From a virus: a DNA stretch of 22,938 bases. The stretch is from positions 1 to 22,938 of the IMG/VR virus record IMGVR_UViG_3300031898_000018; one strand, given 5' to 3'. Below, piece after piece: positions 4,360-22,671 of the stretch (its first letter is position 1; every line of letters begins with the position of its first letter). The position numbers were made by a program, and so were the translations under genes. The notes beneath the pieces are model-generated. The model saw only the letters and a program-made list of their open reading frames with translations, made no database searches and was not told where the DNA came from.

Positions 4360-4436
4360 ACAAAAAAATAAAAAAATAAAAATACATTCATTTTTTTATT
4401 TTTACATTTGATAAGTTACTTTAAGTTTTGGGATCG

Positions 4437-4460
4437 GTGACAATTCAGGCAAATTGTCAC
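4437..4460. promoter_or_regulatory. Perfect 9-bp palindrome, candidate operator
   Basis: GTGACAATT (4437-4445), a 6-base spacer, AATTGTCAC (4452-4460). The size and symmetry are typical of a binding site for a dimeric repressor. It lies about 80 bases upstream of the leftward promoter. The half-site GGTGACA recurs in the imperfect palindrome at 6000-6016, just before the first rightward gene. Confidence 0.5.
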
Positions 4461-4787
4461 TTCTGTTATACTTTTTCTATTTTATCGTCGACGAATTGAT
4501 AAAAATATCAGAATACCGGGGGATAGAAAATTTTTTGCTCTTTTTTGGCATTTTTTTGGAAGTATCTAGTATATCCATTATGATAAATTCTGAAATTCGA
4601 CTTTTCAAATTTTCAAACTTATCGTCTGACTAAAAATGCGCAAGGCTTTTGATTTAATTCATTTTCTCCTATTTACCATTTAGAGCTATCTATTACCATT
4701 TAATATCATCTATTTCAATTCACTTGCTTTTTTAGCAAGTAATTTCAAATCATATATATTTAATTTAATGTTTTCTTTAGTTAGTAT

Positions 4788-5107
4788 CTAGTAAAAATTC
4801 AAAAAACGACTTTTTATAATTATCATGATCATATATTCTAGGCTCTAGTATAATATATATACTCTAGGCTCTATTAGGTACTCTAAGTCTCTGGATTAAT
4901 AATCTAGTTATTATATTATAAATATCATGATCTAGATATATTATAAGCTCTAGAACATATTCTAGGCTCTCTAGTACAAGATAAGTTCTAGTTATTCTAG
5001 TCTGGTACTGGTCACATGATCATGATCTAGAATACTAGTATTAAACATGGTACATGATCAAGATAAGCTAGAGAGAGTATTAGAGAGGCTATATAGTACA
5101 AGATAAG
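4788..5107. repeat. CTAG- and CATGATC-rich repeat field
   Basis: CTAG occurs 14 times between 4788 and 5071. CATGATC occurs five times (4824, 4926, 5015, 5021, 5053). A 21-base near-repeat at 4965-4985 and 5087-5107 shares TAGTACAAGATAAG (19 of 21 positions). AATACTAGTATT at 5031 is a 12-base palindrome. CTAG is normally rare in bacterial DNA, so this density reflects selection or a local amplification process. Origin or protein-array binding is the likely role; this is inference. Confidence 0.6.
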
Positions 5108-5117
5108 CTTAAGGCCT

Positions 5118-5146
5118 TTGACTTGGACTTAATTAGTAGATCTTAT
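5118..5146 (+). promoter_or_regulatory. Possible rightward promoter
   Basis: TTGACT (5118-5123), 17 bases, TCTTAT (5141-5146; 4 of 6 matches to TATAAT). A transcript from here would begin close to the first G run at 5154. It is weak evidence by itself, but it reuses the TTGACT hexamer found in the leftward promoter. A second weaker candidate is TTGACT at 5624-5629 with GAATAT at 5647. Confidence 0.25.
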
Positions 5147-5153
5147 ACGGATC

Positions 5154-5200
5154 GGGGGGTTCCTCATGTGTTGTAGGGGGTCCTAGGGGGGAGTGGGGGG
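5154..5200 (+). other. Four long G runs, possible G-quadruplex
   Basis: Runs of 6, 5, 6 and 6 G residues at 5154-5159, 5176-5180, 5186-5191 and 5195-5200 have loops of 16, 5 and 3 bases. This meets the pattern of an intramolecular four-tetrad or larger quadruplex. It is conspicuous because the surroundings are very AT-rich. Confidence 0.55.
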
Positions 5201-5297
5201 TCTGATATAAGTGCTCATATGCCTAATCAGTTATAGTTTTTTTGGCTCAATATTTTTAAGGGGAATAATGCACCAGCGCCTTCTCTCGTCTTAAACA

Positions 5298-5343
5298 GGC
5301 AAATTTAATTTTAAGCCTTTACTAATGTGGCTTAAAATTTGCC
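5298..5343. repeat. 15-bp hairpin with 5-base bulge
   Basis: The right arm 5329-5343 (GGCTTAAAATTTGCC) pairs fully with the left arm 5298-5317 if five bases bulge out on the left. The loop is 11 bases. No U tract follows. It could be an origin or RNA structure in the non-coding region. Confidence 0.5.
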
Positions 5344-5509
5344 CTCATTTATAAACCTTTATGGATATACACAAAAGCGTTTACCGAAATGATAAGTATT
5401 TTTAAGCATTATCTAATAATCATTAAAATTGAACTTAAATAAAATGTCTTATTTAATATAGTTTGAAATCGCTTAACAATTTGGTAAGTGGTTTTTACAA
5501 ATTTTAAAT

Positions 5510-5565
5510 CCCCGTTGGCCATGTTGCCCGCGGGAAAACATAGATTTGAATTACTTAAAACGGGG
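5510..5565. repeat. Nested inverted repeats
   Basis: CCCCGTT (5510-5516) pairs with AACGGGG (5559-5565). Inside, ATGTT (5521-5525) pairs with AACAT (5537-5541) around GCCCGCGGGAA. The G+C-rich patch is unusual in this region and may mark a structured RNA or protein site. Confidence 0.4.
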
Positions 5566-5757
5566 CTTCTGAACCATATAATCTTAATCTATATTAAAAT
5601 TACTTATCATTTTAGCAAATAATTTGACTTTAAGCGGTACTTCCTAGAATATATATAAGCTCTAGATAATATAGAGGGCAGGATAACCAGCCGGGTGTAT
5701 GTATAAAAGGAGGGTTGAAAGTTTCATTTTGTGTGTAGAATACAGATTGCCTTTATT

Positions 5758-5969
5758 TTAACCCACAGACCGGCGCCACAATAGGGGGTTTTCATGGAAT
5801 TTGCCTATTATGCATGAGATTTTGATCGCAATCTGCAAACGATGAATCTCCTTATCCGCAGAAGAATATAGGACATCGCGAACTTCAGCAGACAATTTAT
5901 CATACTGGATATAGCAGAAGTTATTAAAAACTCATTCGAGAAGGTCTGCTCAGATTTTTTAAAACTCAT
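5758..5969 (-). pseudogene. Possible frameshifted gene remnant
   Basis: On the minus strand an ATG at 5969 opens MSFKKSEQTFSNEFLITS. A second frame, open from 5931 to the stop at 5758 but without an ATG, reads protein-like (YDKLSAEVRDVLYSSADK, then EIHRLQIAIKISCIIGK). A one-base shift at the T5 tract near 5926 would join them into about 70 residues. There is no ribosome site before the ATG. It may be a decayed gene or chance; confidence is low. Confidence 0.22.
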
Positions 5970-5999
5970 AAAAAATATAACAGAATTAACAATTAAATA

Positions 6000-6016
6000 G
6001 GTAACAGGCTGTCACC
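6000..6016. promoter_or_regulatory. Imperfect palindrome, candidate operator
   Basis: GGTAACAG-G-CTGTCACC is symmetric except for one pair. It stands 39 bases before the first rightward start codon and shares the GGTGACA half-site (minus strand) with the perfect palindrome at 4437-4460. A regulator controlling both directions is possible. Confidence 0.35.
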
Positions 6017-6054
6017 ATTTTTAGGTACAAGAATGAAGAGAGGGATATCCACTG

Positions 6055-6237
6055 ATGACTTATATTTCTATCCTGGTAAGATATTTGATTTGTCAAAATT
6101 GTAAATGGTGTTACGATCCTAATTTAACTGCAAGCACTGCATATATTTTTTTACAGCCAAAATATGAAATGGGGGCAGATGGTAATTGGCATTATTTCTG
6201 TCCCATCTGCGGCGGAGTTTTAACCTTAGTATTTTGA
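6055..6237 (+). CDS. Small zinc-ribbon protein, 60 aa
   Basis: This is the first gene of the rightward series. The ATG has a purine-rich GAGAGGG site about 10 bases upstream. The product has CQNCKWC near residue 14 and CPICGG near residue 49, a four-cysteine zinc ribbon with a spacing of about 33 residues. It starts with a hydrophobic stretch (MTYISILVRYLI). The next gene begins 15 bases after the stop. Zinc binding is inferred from the cysteine pattern and the function is unknown. Confidence 0.6.
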   Translation: MTYISILVRYLICQNCKWCYDPNLTASTAYIFLQPKYEMGADGNWHYFCPICGGVLTLVF

Positions 6238-10756: not shown

Positions 10757-12064
10757 ATGAAAACGGGGGATTTAGAAAGGTGGTATAGAAATTTACCATC
10801 GAAAATTATTGTCGATACTGATAATTTTAATCTTGGAAGTCAAGATAGATGGTATAGAGAGTTGCCCTGTATTATTCAATATCAACAAACAGCCGCATAT
10901 GAGACTTATTATCAGAATTTATTAGTGACCGAGGTGGGGGTTATAGTTCTAAACAGAATATGCAGCTTTTTTAGGAGCTTATATATTGCCGAAATATCCA
11001 ACATCTTGCTTTCGAAGATATCCAGTTTTTTCAGGGGATTATCTATTGTTGAAGTATCGAGCTCTTTATTTTCTAAAAAAAGTTTTAAAAGTCTATCTAT
11101 TACTGAAGCATCGACCGCCTTGCTTTCAAAAATAATGAGCTTTTTTAGGAACTTATCTACTAATGGGGTTTCAATTGCTTCGCTTTTAAGGGTATGTAGT
11201 TTTTTCAAGAACTTATCTATTACTGAAATATCATCTGCTTTGGTTTCTAAAGTAGCTTTCTTTTTTAAAAGCCTATCTGTTTCATCTGCGGGCATTATCT
11301 CGTTGAGTAGAGTAGTAGGAAAAATGTTAATAGCAGTTTGCATTTCAGTTTCGTCGTTAATGGGAAAAATAGCAAAAATACTAACAGCGATTGAAAGCTC
11401 ATTAGTTTCAATAGTTAAGAAGACGGGAAAAGCATTAATTATAACGGAGACATCGGTCATCTCTCTCCTAGCCGAACTAGTTACAGAGATTCAGGTATTT
11501 TTGGCAGTTGCGGAGATTTCTATTGTTTCTTTGAGCAAAAAGACTTGGGAAACATTGATGGCGACAAGCACTTCCATTAGCTTATTAATTAAAAAGACGG
11601 CAAAAATATTATCAATATTGGAAGAAACATCCATCTCATTGATTAAAAAGATGGAGAGGGTATTGGAGATAAAAGCTATATCTCTTATTTCTTTAATCAA
11701 GAAGATAAAATCGATGATAGCAATAGCAATAACATCTATAGCAGGAATTGATAAATTTAAAATATCGTTTAAAAATTTAGCTACTGCGATAGTTTCTCTT
11801 CCTTCTGTTTGGAAGAAAATATCTAAAAGATTATCAATTAAATTGGCCTCATTTGTAAGTATATTAACGAGATTAATTATACTCTGGCGGGAAAAAATTT
11901 ATTTATTTTCCATTATTTCCAGATTCTTAGGTTTAGAATCAAAAAGAAAAACCACTAATAGATCAAGCGAAATCTGTAAGATTTTGATATTTGAGTCTAA
12001 AATAAACAAGGCACTAAATTTTAAGAGCGGAAGATTAATCGAGCTCGAATCGGAGATTGGATAA
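10757..12064 (+). CDS. Tandem ~20-residue repeat protein, 435 aa
   Basis: The N-terminus has two copies of RWYRxLP (LERWYRNLPSKI, QDRWYRELPCII). From about residue 66 the chain becomes tandem repeats of 18-20 residues, for example CSFFRSLYIAEISNILLSKI, SSFFRGLSIVEVSSSLFSKK and CSFFKNLSITEISSALVSKV. Later units drift to forms like KILTAIESSLVSIVKKT. The composition is extreme (Ser, Ile, Leu, Lys) with no cleavable signal. The strand spacing suggests a fibrous beta-helix or hairpin stack in a tail or fibre protein. Nearby genes for binding domains and a BppU-like protein support this. The last 60 residues are charged and may be a junction. Confidence 0.6.
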   Translation: MKTGDLERWYRNLPSKIIVDTDNFNLGSQDRWYRELPCIIQYQQTAAYETYYQNLLVTEVGVIVLNRICSFFRSLYIAEISNILLSKISSFFRGLSIVEVSSSLFSKKSFKSLSITEASTALLSKIMSFFRNLSTNGVSIASLLRVCSFFKNLSITEISSALVSKVAFFFKSLSVSSAGIISLSRVVGKMLIAVCISVSSLMGKIAKILTAIESSLVSIVKKTGKALIITETSVISLLAELVTEIQVFLAVAEISIVSLSKKTWETLMATSTSISLLIKKTAKILSILEETSISLIKKMERVLEIKAISLISLIKKIKSMIAIAITSIAGIDKFKISFKNLATAIVSLPSVWKKISKRLSIKLASFVSILTRLIILWREKIYLFSIISRFLGLESKRKTTNRSSEICKILIFESKINKALNFKSGRLIELESEIG

Positions 12065-12356: not shown

Positions 12357-12376
12357 TCGTGGAGGAGGAGGTTGGG

Positions 12377-12880
12377 ATGAAGGATTTATCGAAGGTCAAA
12401 AAGAGCAATAAGGGATATTATATTGAACGCATTCGCAAGAGAGGAAAAAGAAAAGGGCAAATTGCCAGATATTATGGACATCTTCGAATTTGCAAAGCAT
12501 GCGGAAAAAAACATTTTACAGAGGGCATTAGAAAAGGATATGGGAATTTTTGTTCTCTTAGTTGTGCTAATAAAGGTGAAAATAATAATTTTTATAAGAA
12601 AACGGGAAAGTTTCATCCTACTTGGGAAGGAGGCAAAAAGCATCGCCCTGATGGATATATTCGAGTTTTAAACCCTCAACATCCTTATTGTGAAAAAGAT
12701 GGTTATATTCTTGAGCATAGACTTATTATGGAGAAACATCTTGGCAGATATTTAAAACACGAAGAAGTGGTTCATCATAAAGATAGAAATCCGTCTAATA
12801 ACAAATATTCAAATTTAATATTATTTAAAAATCAAGCCGAACATGCAAGATTTGAAAACCCTTTTAAAGGAAAAGATTAA
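12377..12880 (+). CDS. HNH endonuclease with zinc finger, 167 aa
   Basis: The ATG at 12377 follows GGAGGAGG; an upstream GTG at 12359 would include this site. The N-terminus is basic. C39, C42, C59 and C63 (CKACG, FCSLSC) form a zinc finger. The HNH core (about residues 112-158) has EHRLIMEKHLGRYL, VVHHKDRNPSNN and NLILFKNQAEH, giving the catalytic histidine pair (133/134), asparagines at 141/142 and a late histidine at 156. It nicks or cuts DNA with a bound divalent metal. The next gene (large terminase) starts inside the stop codon. It may be a free-standing homing nuclease, or a packaging partner as known for HK97 gp74; position alone cannot decide. Confidence 0.85.
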   Translation: MKDLSKVKKSNKGYYIERIRKRGKRKGQIARYYGHLRICKACGKKHFTEGIRKGYGNFCSLSCANKGENNNFYKKTGKFHPTWEGGKKHRPDGYIRVLNPQHPYCEKDGYILEHRLIMEKHLGRYLKHEEVVHHKDRNPSNNKYSNLILFKNQAEHARFENPFKGKD

Positions 12881-14376
12881 TGCAGGAAGAGCAATTAACC
12901 AAAGAAGAAAAGATATTTATTGAAGGTTTTTTGGACCCCATAAGCTTCTTTGAAGTTTTTTGGTCTCGCCCGAATGAGCCTTGGATAACAAAACCTTCAC
13001 AGGAAAATATGCTTTTAGACAAATCGGACAATATTTCTTGTCGAGCCGGGAGAAGTATTGGTAAGACGGAAGCCATAACCACTGAAAATTTGCAAAGGGC
13101 TTTATTAAATCCAAATAAGGAAAGCCTTCTGTCTACCCCAAGAAAAGCCCATATCAGTCCTTTAATGGACAGGCTTCTCAATAGAATTGAGATAGATGAA
13201 TTTTTAAACGCTTGTTTAGTTCAAAAAAGAAGTTCTCCCGTTTATATGTATAGATTTGCCAATGGGCACCTTCTCCATGGCCGCATTGCTGGAGCATCAG
13301 GGGGAGAATCAGTTTTGAGTTTACATGTTGACTATGCAACTGTTGATGAGGCGCAACTTTATTTAAAAAGAGAAACAGAACAACTTCAGGGCGTCTTTAA
13401 ACCAAATTGTAAGATTAGAGTTATTGGTGTTCCTAATGGGATTCGTAGTTCATATTTATTTCAGGCTAATAGCGACCCTTCATTTTCGCATCACCACTAT
13501 AAAAAAAGTGACGATCCATTTTGGACAGAAAAAGAAAAAGAAAGACTTTTAAGAATCTATGGGGGAGAGAATAGTCAGATATGGAAAAACCAGGTCGAGG
13601 GAGAATTCGGCCTTCCTGCTCAAAAAGGATTTATAAATTGGGAAGGGTGCTTGATTAAGATGTCGGATTATCAAGTATCCTCTTTGGATGACGAGAGAGG
13701 AAGGGAGGGGATAGAGGATTTAATTGGGAAACTCTCTTTTTCTGAACCCAAGAATAAACCCGAGAAAGCGAGAATATCATTCGACTATGGATATTCACCA
13801 GATCCGACTATAATTGGCATCTGGCTTTATTATCAGAATATTCCTAGGCTTGGAGGGAAAGTGATTATGACCTCAGTTGCTCCAAGTAAACAAGCAAAAA
13901 TATTGGACTATATAGCCAGATATTTCAATGCTGAAGTAATTTCCGGAGATGCTGGGGGAGCAGGATTATCTATAATTCTTGATTTAAAAGATGATATAAA
14001 ATTCCCGAATAAAAATTATCAGGTTATTCCCGTAATATTTCAGGCAATTATTGAAATAGGAGAGGACGGCAGACCAATTAAAGATAAATCTGAAAGAGAA
14101 TATCAAAAAACTTTTAAATTTGCGGCAAAAGAATTTTCTTCAATACAGCTTCAGGAGAGATTTAATAAAAAGCTAATTGAGCTTCCTGAGGATGATTATG
14201 AGATTGAAAGAGAAATGGACGAAGCTACACGAATTGTAACTGAGAAGGGCGATATTAAATATGTAGGAGTTGACCATTACTTGGATATGATCAGGTGTTT
14301 AATATTATCGGATTATCTTGAGCCAGAAGAAAAAGAAGAGGATGATGGCCCCTTATTTGCTTTTGCGGATATGTGA
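12880..14376 (+). CDS. terL: Terminase large subunit, 498 aa
   Basis: Motor and nuclease of DNA packaging. The N-terminal ATPase has Walker A RAGRSIGKT (residues 55-63) and Walker B with the catalytic acid in DYATVDEAQ (151-159). The C-terminal RNase H-like nuclease has SFDYGYSPDPT with D302, SGDAGG with D357 and VDHYLDMIR with H466/D469, which match the three metal-binding acidic positions of the family. The length is normal for large terminases. It overlaps the HNH stop by one base and abuts the portal gene. The order HNH, terminase, portal is that of HK97-like phages. It is complete, with no missing catalytic residue. Confidence 0.93.
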   Translation: MQEEQLTKEEKIFIEGFLDPISFFEVFWSRPNEPWITKPSQENMLLDKSDNISCRAGRSIGKTEAITTENLQRALLNPNKESLLSTPRKAHISPLMDRLLNRIEIDEFLNACLVQKRSSPVYMYRFANGHLLHGRIAGASGGESVLSLHVDYATVDEAQLYLKRETEQLQGVFKPNCKIRVIGVPNGIRSSYLFQANSDPSFSHHHYKKSDDPFWTEKEKERLLRIYGGENSQIWKNQVEGEFGLPAQKGFINWEGCLIKMSDYQVSSLDDERGREGIEDLIGKLSFSEPKNKPEKARISFDYGYSPDPTIIGIWLYYQNIPRLGGKVIMTSVAPSKQAKILDYIARYFNAEVISGDAGGAGLSIILDLKDDIKFPNKNYQVIPVIFQAIIEIGEDGRPIKDKSEREYQKTFKFAAKEFSSIQLQERFNKKLIELPEDDYEIEREMDEATRIVTEKGDIKYVGVDHYLDMIRCLILSDYLEPEEKEEDDGPLFAFADM

Positions 14377-14387
14377 GGAGGATAAAT

Positions 14388-15728
14388 ATGCCAAAAATAA
14401 AGAAAAAAAATGTGGAGATAGAAATCACGGGCAAAGTTAATGGGAAGAAAGTAACAAAAGTAATTAAAAGCTATGGCCCCATGGTAGAAGCGGTTGACCT
14501 TACGGGCAGAGCCGCTAGGAGGAAAATATCTACCAGAGACCTAAGAAGGATCTATGAACAAGACGATCTGGTTGGTCCTATAATTGATGCAATAGTATTC
14601 TCCTGCACAACCGCGGGGTATCATTTTGAAGCATATCCTAACGAAGAGATTAATCAAAGGCATTTAGAGATAGTTTTAAGATTTTTTGAAGAAGTCAATG
14701 AGGAAGATACGCTTAATGATCTTCTACACGATTGTTTTTTGGATTTGAATGTATATGGGAATGAATATTGGGAGAAGAAAACAATAAGCAAAGATATGGT
14801 AGATTATGAAGAAAATTTAATGGATAATAAAATGAAACCAGAGGATATTAAAGTTCCTTATAGATTATATAGATTAAATCCTGAGTTTGTTGAAGTAGAA
14901 GCCGATGAACATGGAAAGATTATTAAATTTGTACAGAAGATCCATGGTAGAGAAAATGTAGACTTTGTTCCGGAGAAAATCATTGATTTTAAAATTACGG
15001 GACCGGGAAGTAGCCTCTATGGGACGGCTCCCGGCGCTAAAGTGGGCGTAAACAGCGCAATCGCAGCTAATATGTATTGCTCGGACTATAATGGAAAATT
15101 TTTCCAGAATAATGCAACTCCTAGATTACACATTGATTTAGGGAATGTAACAAAAGAAGATTTAAAAGAGTTCAAAGAGAAAATGGAGACTGAACTAAAA
15201 GGGAATCCTCATAAAAACCTTATAACGAGGTCTAGAAATAAAGACAATAGAGTCCAGGTTAATCCCATCAGCTTGAAAAATGAAGAAATGGAATTTTCAA
15301 CATACGCAAGAGCCCTCAGGCAGAGAATCTTTGGCGCTTATAGGATGCAGCCGATTATCATGGGTATAACAGAGCAAGAGGGGAAAACTACAGTAGATGC
15401 CCAGATTTCTATATATAAAGCATTGTGTATTAAGCCATTACAGAGAATTGTGGCTGATAGGATAAATAGAAAGATAATGAAAAAAATGTTTCCAGGAATT
15501 AAATTAAAATTTGCATTTAATCCTGTTGATATTTTAGATCAATTAGACCAAGTAAAGATCAGCGAGATGGAACTTAAAAATCAAATCAAGACGGTTAATG
15601 AAATTAGAAGAGAGAGGGGATATACATCAGTTCCTTGGGGTAAGACACCCATTATACCCTTCATGGGAGAAGCTGGGCAGGCCCAGATGCCAGGAGGAGA
15701 AGAAGAAAAAGATGAACAAGAAAAATAA
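14388..15728 (+). CDS. Portal protein, 446 aa
   Basis: The ring at the capsid vertex through which DNA passes and to which terminase docks. I use the ATG at 14388, since GAGGAGG lies just upstream; the frame extends to a GTG at 14373 that overlaps the terminase stop. The sequence has the HK97/PBSX-type portal outline: an N-terminal RRIYEQDDLVGPIIDAIV, then LNVYGNEYWEKK, YRLYRLNPEFVEVEADEHGK, EKIIDFKITGPGSSLYGTA, and a helical C-terminus (FSTYARALRQRIFGAYRMQP). A glycine/glutamine-rich charged tail ends the protein. No catalytic motif is expected. Its position directly after the terminase supports the call strongly. Confidence 0.88.
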   Translation: MPKIKKKNVEIEITGKVNGKKVTKVIKSYGPMVEAVDLTGRAARRKISTRDLRRIYEQDDLVGPIIDAIVFSCTTAGYHFEAYPNEEINQRHLEIVLRFFEEVNEEDTLNDLLHDCFLDLNVYGNEYWEKKTISKDMVDYEENLMDNKMKPEDIKVPYRLYRLNPEFVEVEADEHGKIIKFVQKIHGRENVDFVPEKIIDFKITGPGSSLYGTAPGAKVGVNSAIAANMYCSDYNGKFFQNNATPRLHIDLGNVTKEDLKEFKEKMETELKGNPHKNLITRSRNKDNRVQVNPISLKNEEMEFSTYARALRQRIFGAYRMQPIIMGITEQEGKTTVDAQISIYKALCIKPLQRIVADRINRKIMKKMFPGIKLKFAFNPVDILDQLDQVKISEMELKNQIKTVNEIRRERGYTSVPWGKTPIIPFMGEAGQAQMPGGEEEKDEQEK

Positions 15729-15963
15729 TAAGACTGGTATTGAAATGAGGATGGCAGTATTGGAAACCAAATTTGAAGGTCTATCAAAGGAAATAATTGA
15801 AATTAGAGACAATCACCTTGCGGGGATAAATCAAAAATTAGATAGTCTTACAAGAATGTTTCAGACAAGATTGCCTCTCTGGACATCTATTTTGATTACA
15901 TTATTAACTTCCGGCTGCATAGGATTATTGACACTTTATTTGGCCACAATAAATAAAATTTAA
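15712..15963 (+). CDS. XhlA-like membrane protein with coiled coil, 83 aa
   Basis: The gene overlaps the portal end by 17 bases. I use the ATG at 15712; its nearest GGAGGAG is about 13 bases away, so an ATG at 15745 is an alternative. Residues about 15-50 form a coiled coil (ETKFEGLSKEIIEIRDNH, INQKLDSLTRMF). Residues about 57-80 form one membrane span (WTSILITLLTSGCIGLLTLY). This coiled-coil plus C-terminal span is the layout of XhlA/hemolysin-type holin partners of phages. The placement between portal and hydrolase is unusual for a lysis gene; a head or packaging membrane link is also possible. Confidence 0.55.
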   Translation: MNKKNNKTGIEMRMAVLETKFEGLSKEIIEIRDNHLAGINQKLDSLTRMFQTRLPLWTSILITLLTSGCIGLLTLYLATINKI

Positions 15964-15972
15964 GGAAATCAA

Positions 15973-16767
15973 ATGCAAATTGCCTTTTTAGGTTCGGGTC
16001 CATCAGAGAGGATACCACGGCAATATCATTCAGATCCCATTTGTGTCGCTGCAAGGAAGCCGGGATCAAAGGAAAATCGGACACAAAGTTCAATTATTAT
16101 TTCTGAAGATAATACGAACATGTTAATTGACTGTACCGAAGACTTCGAAGAGCAAATTGAAAGAGAAAAGTTTGACCCGAATAAATTGACTGCGGTTTTA
16201 ATAACTCACGCACACGAAGACGCGATTGGCGGAATGTCTATATTAGATAAAAGGATTGAGAAAAAAATTAAGTTTTACTCTTCTGTAAAAGCCATCGGGA
16301 GAATAAAAGAAAGATTTAAGAAGTTAGAGAATCTCGAACCAATGGTGATAGAAGATGAGAAAGATTTTGAAATCTCTCCGTTTAAAATACGAGGATTTGA
16401 AGTTCCTCATTCGATACAAAAGGGCTTTCCTACATTTGCATTTCAGATTAGGACTGAAAAGACTAAAATCACATATTCAGAAGATGTGGCAGAAATTCCA
16501 GAAGATAAAGAGCATTACTATAAAAATAATGATTGTCTAATAATTGATGCTGCCATTTGGGCATTACAGGAAAAGAATGTGCCCAAATCATTTGATCTTG
16601 ATTCATCAGCGGGCCATTTAGTTGTTGGCAAGGACAAATATCTTCCCTGGATTCTTTCATTGAAAAATAGATTGACTATTTTTACACAGTGTGGCCATGG
16701 GTGGCCCTTATATCAAAGGGCTTTTGAAATATTAGAAGAAGAATTAAAGAGGATTGCAAATGTCTAA
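15973..16767 (+). CDS. Metallo-beta-lactamase-fold hydrolase, PhnP-like, 264 aa
   Basis: AAGGAA precedes the ATG. The protein begins MQIAFLGSGPSERIPRQYHS, the glycine motif of PhnP/RNase Z-like metallo-hydrolases. The metal motif is THAHEDAIGG at residues 78-87 (HxHxD), with further ligands likely at H146 (EVPHS), D171 (YSEDV) and H215 or H242 (AGHLVV, CGHGW). The family contains phosphodiesterases and DNA/RNA nucleases; the substrate cannot be read from the motifs, and a beta-CASP domain is not obvious. The next gene overlaps its last 8 bases, so it is coupled to the ligase-phosphoesterase protein. This argues for a shared DNA-end or nucleotide-phosphate task. Confidence 0.8.
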   Translation: MQIAFLGSGPSERIPRQYHSDPICVAARKPGSKENRTQSSIIISEDNTNMLIDCTEDFEEQIEREKFDPNKLTAVLITHAHEDAIGGMSILDKRIEKKIKFYSSVKAIGRIKERFKKLENLEPMVIEDEKDFEISPFKIRGFEVPHSIQKGFPTFAFQIRTEKTKITYSEDVAEIPEDKEHYYKNNDCLIIDAAIWALQEKNVPKSFDLDSSAGHLVVGKDKYLPWILSLKNRLTIFTQCGHGWPLYQRAFEILEEELKRIANV

Positions 16768-19700
16768 ATTTATAGAGGTGAAAGACATGAAGTTTCTTCC
16801 AGCATATGATGGGCTAAAAATAGAGCTAGGGTCTGAAGAAAGACCCGAAGTCAAAGAGGCGTTGTTAGAAGTAAAAGAAATACTTGATGAAGAATCCGGA
16901 GAAGCATTAATTCCCGAGAAGATTGCAAAAGAAAAAATTGAGTGGGCTCTCTATCAATTGCCGCCTTTTGGGAAAATGATATGGGAAGGCAAAAAGACAT
17001 TAATTGTTAAAAATGTCAAACTTGCTAAACATATCAAAGAACCCCTCCTTTTATGCTCTGGAGAGTATGCATATGGGGTAGTTGTATTGGAGATGCCCAT
17101 AGAGATTGATTTAGAGGAATTTAAAAAGCTGGAAGATAAACATTGTATCTCTGAAAAATTAAGACAGCAATTATGGCCAGAAGATAAAAAATTATACGCT
17201 TATGATTTCAAATTTGAAAGACTTGAAAAAATAATGAAATTTAAGAAGGTTAAGGGCTTTCAGAGCTTTATTAGAGCATCAAAGATAAAATTTATTAAAG
17301 AAGGATTAGATTTAGAAGATTGGATTTTAAATTACGAACTAATACCAGACGAAATTCAGGAAACTAGGATTAAAGGAATAACGGCAGAAGAGTTATCAAA
17401 ACTTTCCCGCAGGGAACTTATTTTCCTCCACGCTCGTCTACATCAACTTTGGGGCAAATTTTTTGCGGAGAAAAAAGAAGAAAAACTGAGCAGGGAAACT
17501 TTAGTAAACACTCACTTTTTTGTAATTCAGGAATTTAAACGAAGAGAGCCTCCAATTAACCATAATATCCACGATGAGCTAGATCGATTATCCGAAGCTC
17601 TTGAGAAAGAAAAATTAAAAAAAGAAGCCTTTCGGATTGAACTAATAGAAAAAGGACTGAGCGAAAATTTTATTGATGCTCTTGAAAAAACACAGGGCGA
17701 TTTAATGGATACGGAGGATTATATTTGTTTTGTTGGTTCTGCCGCAAATAAACCCGATAGGGACCCCAATGATATTGATTTATTAGTCAGAGGAGAAATT
17801 GAGCAAAGGACTAAAATAAAAATTGAAAGAGTATTGAAAGAGGCAGGATTTACTGGTGAACTCCATTGGTTCCGGGACGATAAGGGACCACATTCTTCAT
17901 ATTATCCGGTCTATTCACATATTTTAAGAAGAGAGCCTTTTGAGAAAAAAGAGATAGAAGAAGACAGATATAAAGATGAAGAAAAAACATTAATTGGCAT
18001 TGATATAACAGACGGTCCGCATGCGGAAGATAGAATAATAGAAGAATCTCAATCAAAATTGCAATTGATGAAGCCGTTCCAACCCCTGAAGCCAAGCGAA
18101 TATGCATCAAGGTTTTTTGATATAGACGAGCTAATAAAATTTTGGGCAATAGAGGAGAGATTGAAAGAGGGATTGGCCGTAGATCAGAAATTTGACGGTC
18201 TTCGCACAATCCTTCAACGAGATGGGGATAAAACTCTTATCTACTTCGAAGATGCTAAGAAAGATAGGTCGGAGAATTTACCTAATTTAGTGAAGGATTT
18301 AAAATCTCTGCCAATTGATAAATTAATTCTTGATGGTGAACTATTGGAAATTAAAGATGGCGAACAGACTGATAGAAAGGACCTGCTTAAATTTGCTATT
18401 GGTAAAGGAGAACAGGATGATAGCCACGTGGAAGTTCATTGTTTTGATTGCTTATGGTATGGGGAGAAGGGGGCATTGAATGAATTACCTTGGAAAGAAA
18501 GACAGGAATATTTAAAAAAAGGTTTGTCTAAAAATACAAAACACATCAAGCGAGTAATATCCAAAATAGTCCATACTAGAGAAGACTTGAAAAAAGCAAT
18601 GCTTGAAGTAGCGAAGATAAAAGGATCGGAAGGGGCGATGGTGAAAATATCCACTAGTCGATATTCCCTAGGTGGACGCACAGTCGACTGGACAAAGATC
18701 AAAAGCTGGAAGACTATTAATTATCTTGTTTATGATAGAAAAGCCACAAAAACATCCGGTGTTTATAATTATCTCTGTGCAATTAGACCAAGCGGAGACA
18801 TAGAAAGGTTCGCTGATATTATTGAATTTGGAGGTAAAAAATATATCTCAGTTGGTTCTACTTATAATGTCAAAGAGGATATTAAACTTGGGACTATTAT
18901 CGAAGTAGCAGTAGCGGAAATAAAGATTACGGAAAAGGATGGGAAAATAAGGATAACGCACGATAATCCAGTTTGGCGCGGAAGTGAGGTTGGGAAGAAA
19001 GAACCTTATACTTTTGACCAAATTAAAGAGATAGCCGAGGCTAAAAGAGGATTTAAAAAGTCCGAAGATGAAATTGCTATATCGGATATAGCAGAAAAAG
19101 AAGAGGCCGTCGACAAAACTTCCTATATATATGGGAGGGAACTTTTACAGATCTTTGATAATAGTGGCGAGTTTACTCAGGAATGGATTGATTATGAAGC
19201 AGGTATAAATTCCTGCGAAGTCTTGGAGTTTGACTCGCCGACATTTGAGGAATGGATTGAAGAAATTATTCCTTTAGAGCCATCAATTGAATTGATAAAG
19301 AAATTGACGGGAGAAGAAGGCGGGGCAGCTCGAGGGAAGGGGAATCCATATTTAGTCCCAAATTTGAAGGGAGTTCCTTATGTAGTTCATATTCATTGGC
19401 GAGGATTGAGCGAAGAAGAGGCAAAGACAGGAAAGATTTCAGAAGGAAGAAGCGTTCATTTAGATTTGAGATGGAAAAGTACTCCAGATTATGGATTGGG
19501 AGTAACGCTTGATACGCCAGGAAGTTCGGGGCAAAGAAATAAATTTACCGAGCCCAAGAGAGGCGAAAGAATCCTTTGCCAATTAAAGAATCTGATTCCC
19601 ATGGGTTGGTTTAATAGCAAGAATTTTCCGTATATAAGCGAACCCGGGGGCGTTGGGGCTACAAGTTTAAAATGGGCTCGGATAGAAATATTAAAAAGGG

Positions 19701-19921
19701 GCAATTTAATCTATTTGCCTTACAAAGACCATTTTTTAGAATTTCTTTTTGAGGGCAAGGAGCGCTGGTGCCTGATGTTTGTCCCCACGCCTCCTCAATG
19801 GACAAAAGTCGGTAAGGCAAAAAGGATATGGCTGCTCTATAAACCAGAAGACCAGGAGCCTTATTGGAAAAAACATCCTGAAGCGATGGAAAGAATTAGA
19901 GACAGAATAAAAGAAAAATGA
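16760..19921 (+). CDS. Multidomain ATP-dependent DNA ligase with ASCH-like, nucleotidyltransferase-like and 3'-phosphoesterase-like domains, 1053 aa
   Basis: Start ATG 16760 has GAGG 7 bases upstream and overlaps the hydrolase; ATG 16787, with GAGGTG, is an alternative. Numbering is from 16760. About 68-112: FGKMIWEGKKTLIVK and LLLCSGEYAYGVVVL resemble an ASCH/PUA-like domain. About 323-390: FVGSAANKPDRDPNDIDLLV fits the pol-beta-like nucleotidyltransferase motif (GS, then D338 and D340). About 470-740: DNA ligase with KFDG (nucleophile K477), LILDGELL, SEGAMVK, DWTKIKSW and an OB-fold (VGSTYNVKEDIKLGTIIEV). About 820-1030: a LigD-like phosphoesterase with VVHIH (H877, H879) and RSVHLDLRW (H900, D902, R904). 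It should reseal nicks or breaks and trim 3' ends. Ligase call sure; PhE good; ASCH and NTase moderate. Confidence 0.88.
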   Translation: MSKFIEVKDMKFLPAYDGLKIELGSEERPEVKEALLEVKEILDEESGEALIPEKIAKEKIEWALYQLPPFGKMIWEGKKTLIVKNVKLAKHIKEPLLLCSGEYAYGVVVLEMPIEIDLEEFKKLEDKHCISEKLRQQLWPEDKKLYAYDFKFERLEKIMKFKKVKGFQSFIRASKIKFIKEGLDLEDWILNYELIPDEIQETRIKGITAEELSKLSRRELIFLHARLHQLWGKFFAEKKEEKLSRETLVNTHFFVIQEFKRREPPINHNIHDELDRLSEALEKEKLKKEAFRIELIEKGLSENFIDALEKTQGDLMDTEDYICFVGSAANKPDRDPNDIDLLVRGEIEQRTKIKIERVLKEAGFTGELHWFRDDKGPHSSYYPVYSHILRREPFEKKEIEEDRYKDEEKTLIGIDITDGPHAEDRIIEESQSKLQLMKPFQPLKPSEYASRFFDIDELIKFWAIEERLKEGLAVDQKFDGLRTILQRDGDKTLIYFEDAKKDRSENLPNLVKDLKSLPIDKLILDGELLEIKDGEQTDRKDLLKFAIGKGEQDDSHVEVHCFDCLWYGEKGALNELPWKERQEYLKKGLSKNTKHIKRVISKIVHTREDLKKAMLEVAKIKGSEGAMVKISTSRYSLGGRTVDWTKIKSWKTINYLVYDRKATKTSGVYNYLCAIRPSGDIERFADIIEFGGKKYISVGSTYNVKEDIKLGTIIEVAVAEIKITEKDGKIRITHDNPVWRGSEVGKKEPYTFDQIKEIAEAKRGFKKSEDEIAISDIAEKEEAVDKTSYIYGRELLQIFDNSGEFTQEWIDYEAGINSCEVLEFDSPTFEEWIEEIIPLEPSIELIKKLTGEEGGAARGKGNPYLVPNLKGVPYVVHIHWRGLSEEEAKTGKISEGRSVHLDLRWKSTPDYGLGVTLDTPGSSGQRNKFTEPKRGERILCQLKNLIPMGWFNSKNFPYISEPGGVGATSLKWARIEILKRGNLIYLPYKDHFLEFLFEGKERWCLMFVPTPPQWTKVGKAKRIWLLYKPEDQEPYWKKHPEAMERIRDRIKEK

Positions 19922-19955
19922 AAGCAGAACATGATAAATAAAAGGCGAGAATAAA

Positions 19956-21185
19956 ATGTCTAAAGAATGCGAAGAAACGGGATCTGGTTTTATAGATGAA
20001 TTAATTCAAAGACTAATAAAGGACAAGCCTAAAAATTTTAGGGACGAAAAGATTAATGAATTTTTAGGCTGCCCCAAGAATAAACAGACAATTGTTGGGA
20101 AGACAGTCCCGGGTTATCTAGCGGGATTATATTCATTAGCGGTTGAATCAATAATCAAAAACCAAGATTTTTTTATTACCAATCTTAGCAGAGAAGGAGA
20201 ACAACCCCCTAGATATACAAATTGCCAAACAGGACATGGGCAAGAAGCGAATTATTTATTAGAGGGATTTTATTTCATAAAACAAGAATGCCCAATGGTA
20301 ATAGGGGTTGAGCCTGTTCCGATGGCTTTTAGTATCGAAGTTTATTTGCCAAAAAATAAAAAGAGTATCGGGATTGATTTTCTTAAAGAGATTGATATAT
20401 GGGCAAAAAAGAATAATTTCTATAAGGGCAAAGCTATTGAAGCAAAAAGGCAATACGGCGATCTTTATTTTGATTTTTTGGCTCCGATTAATAAAAACTG
20501 GGATGATATTATTTTATCAAAGACACAGATTGATGAAATATCTGAAAATATTCTGGTGCCGATAGAGCATTCTGATATTATGAGGAATCTGAATAAGACA
20601 GCTACAAGAGGTGTATTATTTATCGGTAAACCCGGAACGGGGAAAACATTGTTTTTAAAGATTCTTTGCGAAGAGGTTAAAAGCCATACTCGGATCTGGG
20701 TCTCAAGCAGCACTCTTTCAGGCAGTGTGGTTTCGCAAATATTTGATGCTGCAAGAGATTTAAAACCAAGTATTTTGATATTAGAGGATTTTGATTTAGT
20801 AGGCAGGGACAGAGAAGTATCAAATTCAGAATCTCTAGGAAATTTATTAATGGAGCTTGATGGGCAGAAAAGCAATGATGATTTGATTATTTTAATTACT
20901 AGCAATAATCCTAAGACTATTGATAATGCCCTGATGAGACCAGGGAGAATTGACAGAACAATTGAATTTCTAATCCCCGATGAGCATCAGAGATATAGTT
21001 TATTGAAATTATTTTTAAAAGAATATAAATCAAACATAGATATAAAAAAATTGGCGAAAGAGACTGATGGATATACAGGCGCTGATTTAAAGGAATTAGT
21101 AACTTCGGCAATATTACGAGCTATTAGAAGAGAACCAAAGAATCCACAAATTGTAGATAGTGATTTTAAATCACATAGTTTTTGA
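19956..21185 (+). CDS. AAA+ ATPase, BCS1/CDC48-like, 409 aa
   Basis: GGCGAG precedes the ATG. Residues 1-200 are an unrecognised N-domain with alternating strands (CPMVIGVEPVPMAFSIEVYL) that could contact a substrate. The ATPase domain has Walker A GKPGTGKT (224-231), a Walker B of the BCS1 form ILILEDFD (273-280), a sensor-1 segment ITSNNP (314-319), arginine-finger motif RPGRID (328-333), and a lid ending GYTGADLKELV (372-382). This is a classic AAA unfoldase or remodelling ring, expected to act as a hexamer. It follows the ligase gene by 34 bases. It may remodel a protein complex at DNA ends or in the head; the partner is unknown. Confidence 0.85.
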   Translation: MSKECEETGSGFIDELIQRLIKDKPKNFRDEKINEFLGCPKNKQTIVGKTVPGYLAGLYSLAVESIIKNQDFFITNLSREGEQPPRYTNCQTGHGQEANYLLEGFYFIKQECPMVIGVEPVPMAFSIEVYLPKNKKSIGIDFLKEIDIWAKKNNFYKGKAIEAKRQYGDLYFDFLAPINKNWDDIILSKTQIDEISENILVPIEHSDIMRNLNKTATRGVLFIGKPGTGKTLFLKILCEEVKSHTRIWVSSSTLSGSVVSQIFDAARDLKPSILILEDFDLVGRDREVSNSESLGNLLMELDGQKSNDDLIILITSNNPKTIDNALMRPGRIDRTIEFLIPDEHQRYSLLKLFLKEYKSNIDIKKLAKETDGYTGADLKELVTSAILRAIRREPKNPQIVDSDFKSHSF

Positions 21186-21324: not shown

Positions 21325-22671
21325 ATGGACGAAGAAATCAGAACTTATAGCGGTTTAGAGTGCGAGATTCCTATAGCGATAAAAAGACATTACATCGAGA
21401 AAGGAGAAAAGGAAGAGGAAGAAAAGAGATGGGTGATCGAAGGATACGCTTCAATGGAAGGAGCGGATCGAAATGACCCTGTGATTATTATTTCAAGAGA
21501 GGCGATGAAAGATTCCGAAGATGACCTCAAAGAGAATTCTACCGTTTTTCTAGAGCACCAAAGATTTGAAAGAATAGGCAAAGTGCTTGATAGCAAGGTA
21601 GATAAAAAAGGTCTTTGGGTAAAGATTCTAATTAGCAAAACGGCAAAGGATGTCTGGAAACAAATTCAGGAAGGGGTATTGAATGCTCTGTCTATAGGAG
21701 CGAAAATACTCGAATCTATTAAAAAGATTGACCGAGAACTAGGCAAATTGGTCGAAATAGTGACCAAGATGGAAATTCTTGAAGTCAGTCTTGTAGGACT
21801 ACCCGCACATCCAGATACAAAAATTATTAGCTGGAGGGAAGAGGCCTTACAACCAGTATATGATTATGTTTTTAAGTCATTACAAAATTTTGAAACTAAA
21901 AATGAAGGAGGTGAAAAAGAAATGACGCAGGAAGAGATCAAAGAAGAAGCAAAAGAGGAAGAAAAAATTTCTGAGGAGATAAAAGAAGCCCCAAAAGAGG
22001 AAGAATCCGAGGTAAAGGCTGAGGAAAAAGTTGAAGAGAAAACCGAAGAAAAGGTTGAAGAAAAAATTGAGGAGAAGGTCGAGGAGAAAAAGGAAGAAAC
22101 CATAGAAAAAGTAGAAAAATCGGAAAGCGAAATCGAAGAAAAGAAAGATGCCAAATGTGATTATGAGGAAGATGAAAAGAAAAAACCCAAGAAATCCGAG
22201 GATTCCGATATAGAAGAGGCAAAATCTTCTATTGTGGGGAAGATAAAGTCTGCGATTGTCCTTCTTGAAAAAGCAGTTGAGGGGTTAGAGGCTTATTACA
22301 AAAAGCCTGAAAAATCAGAGGAAGTAGCGGATCTTAAGGAAAGGAAAAAGAAATATCCGAAGCCCGATGAGGAGTATGAAGAAGAGGAAAAAAAGAAGAA
22401 AAAGCCCAAAGAGGAATATGAAGAGTATTACAAGGAAGAAAAAAAGGCTTTGGAAGAGCTAAAAAAGTCTATTGAGGAATTATCCAAGAAGATAATCGGA
22501 GAGGACAAGGTTAAGGAGATGGCTGAAAAAATTACAAAAGATGTAATTAAAAAGCTCCCCGAGCCAGAAGAAATTAGAAAGGGGCTTGAAATTAAGGAAG
22601 AAGAAGAAAAAGAGCCAAAGGACCCAAGGAAGAGGCTGGAAAAGCATATTGAAGAAATGGTGCAAAAGTAA
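21325..22671 (+). CDS. Prohead protease fused to scaffold, 448 aa
   Basis: AAGGAGGTG precedes the ATG. Residues about 35-170 are a U35/S78-type prohead serine protease: WVIEGYASMEGADRNDP, FLEHQRFERIGKVLD with catalytic H78, GLWVKILIS, LNALSIGAKI with nucleophile S123, and ILEVSLVGLPAHP. Residues about 190-448 are almost all K and E with helical periodicity, the typical scaffold composition; the protease should cut this part out during head maturation. The end (RKRLEKHIEEMVQK) may contact the capsid protein. The gene directly precedes the capsid gene. An internal in-frame start at 21922 probably gives the scaffold alone. Confidence 0.88.
   Translation: MDEEIRTYSGLECEIPIAIKRHYIEKGEKEEEEKRWVIEGYASMEGADRNDPVIIISREAMKDSEDDLKENSTVFLEHQRFERIGKVLDSKVDKKGLWVKILISKTAKDVWKQIQEGVLNALSIGAKILESIKKIDRELGKLVEIVTKMEILEVSLVGLPAHPDTKIISWREEALQPVYDYVFKSLQNFETKNEGGEKEMTQEEIKEEAKEEEKISEEIKEAPKEEESEVKAEEKVEEKTEEKVEEKIEEKVEEKKEETIEKVEKSESEIEEKKDAKCDYEEDEKKKPKKSEDSDIEEAKSSIVGKIKSAIVLLEKAVEGLEAYYKKPEKSEEVADLKERKKKYPKPDEEYEEEEKKKKKPKEEYEEYYKEEKKALEELKKSIEELSKKIIGEDKVKEMAEKITKDVIKKLPEPEEIRKGLEIKEEEEKEPKDPRKRLEKHIEEMVQK
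21922..22671 (+). CDS. Nested scaffold protein from an internal start, 249 aa
   Basis: Inside the protease gene, in the same frame, AAGGAGGTG (21905-21913) stands 8 bases before ATG 21922 (MTQEEIKEEAKEEEK). This is the strongest ribosome site form used in the window, placed exactly between the protease domain and the charged helix region. The product would be a free scaffold lacking the protease, as with Nu3 inside lambda gene C. The composition is about half K and E with repeated EEKVEEK units. Separate expression is inferred from this site. Confidence 0.55.
   Translation: MTQEEIKEEAKEEEKISEEIKEAPKEEESEVKAEEKVEEKTEEKVEEKIEEKVEEKKEETIEKVEKSESEIEEKKDAKCDYEEDEKKKPKKSEDSDIEEAKSSIVGKIKSAIVLLEKAVEGLEAYYKKPEKSEEVADLKERKKKYPKPDEEYEEEEKKKKKPKEEYEEYYKEEKKALEELKKSIEELSKKIIGEDKVKEMAEKITKDVIKKLPEPEEIRKGLEIKEEEEKEPKDPRKRLEKHIEEMVQK

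Follow-up and report, generated by a model that had tools for sequence, protein, structure and literature searches.

A predicted DNA ligase and 3'-phosphoesterase protein of viral head operons, and its possible packaging for repair of the entering genome

Polyvalent proteins, as surveyed by Iyer et al. (2017, PMC5512222), are huge multi-enzyme proteins encoded near late virion genes, with exchangeable methylase, Pol-beta-type nucleotidyltransferase (NTase) and 2H domains and with assemblin-like prohead peptidases that are always C-terminal; 'ligase' there refers to RNA ligases only, neither a DNA ligase nor a metallo-beta-lactamase (MBL) domain is described, and archaea are called poor in such proteins. 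An ATP-dependent DNA ligase combined with a 3'-phosphoesterase (PE) of the LigD superfamily is known from the LigD and non-homologous end joining (NHEJ) systems of bacteria and archaea, and annotated methyltransferase/protease fusions of Lactococcus and Rhizobium phages join an enzyme to an XkdF-like head maturation protease. Here we analyzed a protein with likeness to all of these, encoded in the head operon of an uncultured tailed virus on the linear IMG/VR record IMGVR_UViG_3300031898_000018, the whole 22,938 bases of which are called the window below. The constant core of this protein and its relatives is an NTase, a DNA ligase and a LigD-type PE, unlike the polyvalent proteins of that survey; members were moreover found in an archaeal virus and in contigs of archaeal metagenome-assembled genomes (MAGs), in contrast to the archaeal scarcity reported there. 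The Lactococcus and Rhizobium phage fusions lack the ligase/PE core. Unlike in LigD, the ligase here precedes the PE, the NTase stands in front, and the gene lies in a virus head operon; since neither the LigD primase-polymerase domain (PF21686) nor Ku (PF02735) was found in the window or in 13 related records, several of which are fragments, this is not a LigD/NHEJ system proper.

The best relative of the window ligase protein among 50,697 phage records was AJP62006, annotated as an ATP-dependent DNA ligase and combining NTase, ligase and PE in a single polypeptide; it is encoded by ANMV-1, a virus of methane-seep archaea, the only one of those records in which a ligase was seen together with a PE. 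The two proteins matched at 27% over 411 amino acids (aa) across NTase and ligase, with the C-terminal domain aligning separately. The ANMV-1 gene directly follows a portal gene (phrog_146, 2e-30) and, unlike that of the window, has no MBL or AAA+ neighbour, the prohead protease being encoded elsewhere in the record. It is followed (L002:5868-9368) by a gene for a very cysteine-rich repeat protein of 1166 aa, the last 40 residues of which (CDYCRDMW...YHEHCRCYG) by eye resemble a MuF C-terminus. No paper treating ANMV-1 together with a DNA ligase was found in the open-licence literature.

The ligase protein of the window was resolved into the following parts, where HMM stands for hidden Markov model.

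16760 to 19921, + strand: multidomain ligase protein, 1053 aa from the ATG at 16760
16925 to 17317, + strand: N-terminal domain, weakly ASCH/PUA-like, by alignment, common to L016 (a Methanophagales MAG contig) and L031
17708 to 17983, + strand: Pol-beta-type NTase-like domain with the motif GS..N(9)DID, by family HMM
17966 to 19057, + strand: ATP-dependent DNA ligase, adenylation and OB domain (PF01068, 1e-21)
19334 to 19918, + strand: LigD-type 3'-phosphoesterase domain, by PDB profile match and model alignment

The open reading frame (ORF) was predicted from a TTG at 16754, giving 1055 aa, with the ATG at 16760 giving 1053 aa. The preliminary description, made from the letters of the window, had read this gene as a ligase-phosphoesterase fusion, which it is, and had overlooked the NTase-like domain. 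By its motifs and its adenylation and OB domains the protein is predicted to be an ATP-dependent DNA ligase, with KFDG at aa 479-482 and SEGAMVK at aa 625-631 (KxDG and EGxxxK), and an AlphaFold model of residues 404-768 aligned with archaeal and other DNA ligases at Z up to 25.2 (2cfm). In a Pfam scan the DNA ligase domain alone was detected, and when the fold search was run with the whole protein its list was filled by ligase matches.

The PE domain, which was detected by neither Pfam nor PHROGs, was identified through a profile of ten C-terminal domains, for which the top two matches among 177,635 PDB sequences were both LigD-type PE domains (3p4h, E 0.0014, and 3p43, E 0.47). Modelled with AlphaFold (pLDDT 76.8), the window domain aligned with 3p4h at Z 12.9, with a root-mean-square deviation of 2.2 over 114 of 118 residues. 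LigD-type PE domains made up all of the five best structure matches, at Z 12.9 to 10.1, followed by an unrelated one at Z 3.9, and in Foldseek 3p43 was the sole match with E <0.001. The metal-site motifs, HIHWR (aa 879) and SVHLDLR (aa 900), spanned aa 879-906; the H and the S-x-H-x-D were invariant and the R nearly invariant among the ten aligned members, and H.D.R was seen in 75 of 86 PE domains. The earlier 3'-phosphoesterase call thus held, both fold and metal/phosphate-site residues being those of a true LigD-superfamily member. We assign only two activities firmly, from predicted structures, namely DNA ligase and 3'-phosphoesterase. For the N-terminal domain and the NTase region AlphaFold confidence was low and no fold is claimed: the N-terminal approximately 130 residues had no Pfam match and a best PDB profile match, 2dp9, that was not significant (E 0.11), and the NTase-like domain gave weak matches to outside libraries.

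Scans with single window proteins (ligase protein, MBL or AAA+) returned no close relatives, and alignments were needed. A scan with a two-row alignment gave 13 viral contigs and, among genome contigs, those of Methanophagales, Methanosarcinales and Euryarchaeota MAGs, which carry portal, ligase/PE and then, on contigs of sufficient length, prohead protease genes; nine of the 13 genome-contig matches were DPANN contigs with ordinary-sized ligase ORFs, which were set aside and used as an outgroup. Two more scans with PE alignments yielded more than 100 loci, for a total of 115 PE-bearing loci, the first set and the window included, corresponding to 70 clusters at 90% PE identity, here called members. 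No PE relative was found on plasmids. In a ligase tree with a small outgroup and a long window branch, a branch with support 99/97 separated the 18 head-operon ligases from nine DPANN and two phage ligases.

In 62 of the 70 members the PE ORF itself encoded a ligase or had one no more than 9 kb away on the same strand, and 57 of 70 likewise had an NTase, by family HMM. The neighbours of the core genes in relatives were portal, MuF, protease and capsid genes; portal/MuF genes stood upstream in 29 members and downstream in none, and protease/capsid genes lay downstream or were fused in 38, with none upstream, all of these being lower bounds for related members and not counts of independent events, since few seeds underlie the head-gene models and many loci are cut off by the contig edge. 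Seventy distinct viral loci share the ligase/PE arrangement in one gene order, far more than chance would give, and the core is not a chance insertion. That unrelated single genes (morons) came by chance to lie among head genes is most improbable: for the ligase core it is contradicted by 70 distinct members, one order and many fusions, and the point in its favour is the AAA+ gene, adjacent in the window only. The claim that ligase and 3'-phosphoesterase form a head-operon module was thereby borne out.

The core was also fused to other enzymes. Domain scans of relatives identified as its partners MBL domains, D12 and C5 methylases, uracil-DNA glycosylase (UDG), Nudix domains and a C-terminal XkdF-like protease, with 2H phosphoesterases also among the exchangeable partners around it. 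Fusion to methylases, UDG and MBL points to a group of enzymes that act at DNA entry or in repair. An XkdF prohead protease was fused to the PE ORF in 19 of 70 members, and in 35 of the 36 ORFs joining XkdF with ligase or PE it was the final domain. Some loci divide the architecture differently. In L007 (3315-6512) and L012 (2821-5301) it is split between two ORFs, a 2H/LigT phosphoesterase and NTase gene, with a D12 methylase as well in L007, standing upstream of a ligase-PE-XkdF gene; in L015 (13334-15340) the prohead-protease gene itself bears the NTase domain that usually accompanies the ligase; and in L018 (647-6919), a Methanosarcinales MAG contig, four other genes lie between the ligase and PE halves, which form a single protein in L017 of the same MAG.

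Disparate enzyme domains were thus found in one large polypeptide, sited among virion genes and with the protease C-terminal where present, and by architecture and location the family fits the polyvalent kind, of which packaging would be a further property. Of the polyvalent hub domains, neither the zincin metallopeptidase nor ArdC-N was seen in general Pfam scans, dedicated models for them not having been used. A prohead protease becomes part of the prohead and, as this matures, cuts itself and its neighbours; an enzyme fused to one would be carried inside and released there. We infer packaging, ejection, substrate and time of action, the first two from the XkdF fusions together with the published polyvalent proteins, encoded near virion genes and bearing C-terminal peptidases. 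We consider it moderately probable that the ligase protein, with the MBL as its partner, forms a DNA-repair polyprotein of the polyvalent type, carried in the prohead and delivered together with the DNA, whose task is to heal and seal the genome on arrival. The fuller proposal, that a widespread class of uncultured tailed viruses, including those of methane-oxidising archaea, packs an end-healing ligase as a cleavable extension of the prohead protease, ejects it together with the genome, and heals and seals that genome on entry without Ku, is put forward tentatively, at slightly less than an even chance. The ligase protein would be produced together with the head proteins and built into the prohead, relatives securing entry by direct XkdF fusion, with the protease releasing the enzyme, which would then exit the particle along with the DNA. 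Once in the new cell, the enzyme would protect or circularise the entering genome, its PE domain cleaning 3' ends and its ligase sealing nicks or annealed genome ends, and the swap-in partners (D12/C5 DNA methylases, MBL, UDG, Nudix, 2H) may contribute functions in anti-restriction, repair or signal degradation. There is a precedent for end joining on entry, since some mycobacterial phages require NHEJ for genome circularization, according to the account of Pitcher et al. (2006) given in PMC3898472; end joining serves the entering genome in both cases, the mycobacteriophages of that account drawing on NHEJ and the present virus encoding ligase and PE in its own head operon, with no Ku found.

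The other genes of the window head operon and its surroundings were as follows.

12359 to 12880, + strand: HNH endonuclease, abutting the terminase gene
12880 to 14376, + strand: terminase large subunit (phrog_2, 1e-17)
14373 to 15728, + strand: portal protein (PF04860, 4e-28)
15598 to 15963, rightward: small coil/membrane ORF, after the portal
15973 to 16767, + strand: MBL-fold protein with a PhnP/RNase Z-like core, 264 aa (PF12706, 8e-21)
19956 to 21185, + strand: AAA+ ATPase, Cdc48/PAN-like with AAA_lid_3 (PF00004, 2e-22; PF17862, 2e-13)
21325 to 22671, + strand: prohead serine protease with a long charged C-terminal tail (PF04586, 9e-15)

The coordinates and domains of the MBL, ligase and AAA+ genes at 15973-21185 were as first described, and so was their spacing, the ligase ATG at 16760 overlapping the MBL gene by 8 bases and 34 bases separating the ligase stop from the AAA+ start. 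Their placement between portal and prohead protease also stood; the supposed portal pair was found to be the terminase large subunit and the portal, followed by the small coil/membrane ORF. Genes so placed could act late in the producing cell, mending nicks or damaged ends of replicated concatemers before or during packaging, with the placement reflecting late expression. Their vicinity to portal and terminase and the ligase and 3'-phosphoesterase as sole firm activities speak for this, whereas the XkdF fusions in 19 of 70 members would put the enzyme inside the prohead, and fusions to methylase, UDG and MBL would not be expected of a packaging aid; we regard it as unlikely. The preliminary 'late-expressed' label agrees with the position; the XkdF fusions, however, speak for prohead packaging and action on entry rather than for late action alone. 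An HNH gene beside the terminase was considered as a family-wide mark of cohesive ends and dropped, as ligase-family relatives lack that HNH.

That trio of genes had been proposed as one ordered module. When it was sought in viral contigs, the AAA+ gene was found beside the ligase/PE in the window only and not in the head operons of relatives, and the MBL was usually within the ligase polypeptide, which argued against the module as ordered; lack of conservation near head genes, named beforehand as refuting, was thus seen for the AAA+ and not for the ligase core. The AAA+ protein had its Walker A, Walker B, sensor 1 and RPGRID all intact, and its gene may be a local addition. The MBL, by contrast, belongs with the ligase/PE, being on the same polypeptide as the ligase in 16 clusters (21 distinct ORFs). 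Its motif HxHxDH was retained in 17 of these 21 domains; the window MBL has HAHEDA in its place and TQ instead of the last TH, so that two metal ligands are lost and zinc site 2 is partly gone. Because of that loss a nuclease role of the MBL in this virus, judged from sequence, is doubtful, and the earlier suggestion of a DNA-end nuclease is weak for the window copy.

The exchangeable partners bear on a further explanation, which may overlap with packaging for entry, namely that the proteins are counter-defence cargo, in which MBL and 2H domains destroy nucleotide signals in the manner of Apyc1, methylases block restriction, and ligase and PE reverse nuclease cuts. The swapping of MBL, 2H, D12 and C5 methylase around the core agrees with this, and the window MBL gave a weak sequence match to Apyc1 that was not significant (E 0.67); yet what stays constant across the family is the set of NTase, ligase and PE and not the signal-degrading domains, and the metal site of the window MBL is degenerate. 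We take this to be somewhat unlikely. The NTase raises yet another explanation, RNA repair, by which ligase, NTase and phosphoesterase would mend tRNAs that host toxins have cut. The 3'-PE family is known to accept ribonucleotide ends. An NTase beside a ligase resembles the pairing of RlaP with the RNA ligases of jumbo phages, for which such repair was proposed (PMC7824862). The ligase, however, resembles replicative-type DNA ligases and not the Rnl families, and its fusion partners include DNA methylases and UDG; we regard RNA repair as very unlikely. Throughout the family the NTase DxD was kept in 66 of 67 copies, with the third acidic residue (D) in some only.

Several findings weigh against packaging and healing on entry as the role of the window protein. 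The window encodes its protease as a separate gene and has no known packaging signal, its MBL lacks the two metal ligands, its NTase has the third acidic residue replaced, and no Ku or end-bridging partner was found in the window or in the 13 related records, fragments among them.

Elsewhere in the window, approximately 1.7 kb at 4380-6055, between leftward and rightward genes, had no ORF of more than 60 aa and contained inverted repeats and direct repeats around CTCTAG, with six of the ten window copies at 4843-5665; this is possibly an origin or control region. A 435-aa ORF at 10757-12064 had an internal repeat with a 60-base period and no family match. Neither Rfam nor tRNA scans returned a match in the window.

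Ejected proteins of phages are difficult to detect, and DNA ligases are usually classed under replication. Within the open-licence literature, the ligase/PE core is new among polyvalent-type proteins, with an earlier description elsewhere being possible. If the proposed role is true, LigD-like end healing would extend to virus entry, so that 'repair on arrival' becomes testable, and the polyvalent-protein idea would extend to viruses of archaea, where such proteins were said to be rare (PMC5512222). The family also offers diverse natural fusions of ligase and end-healing domains.

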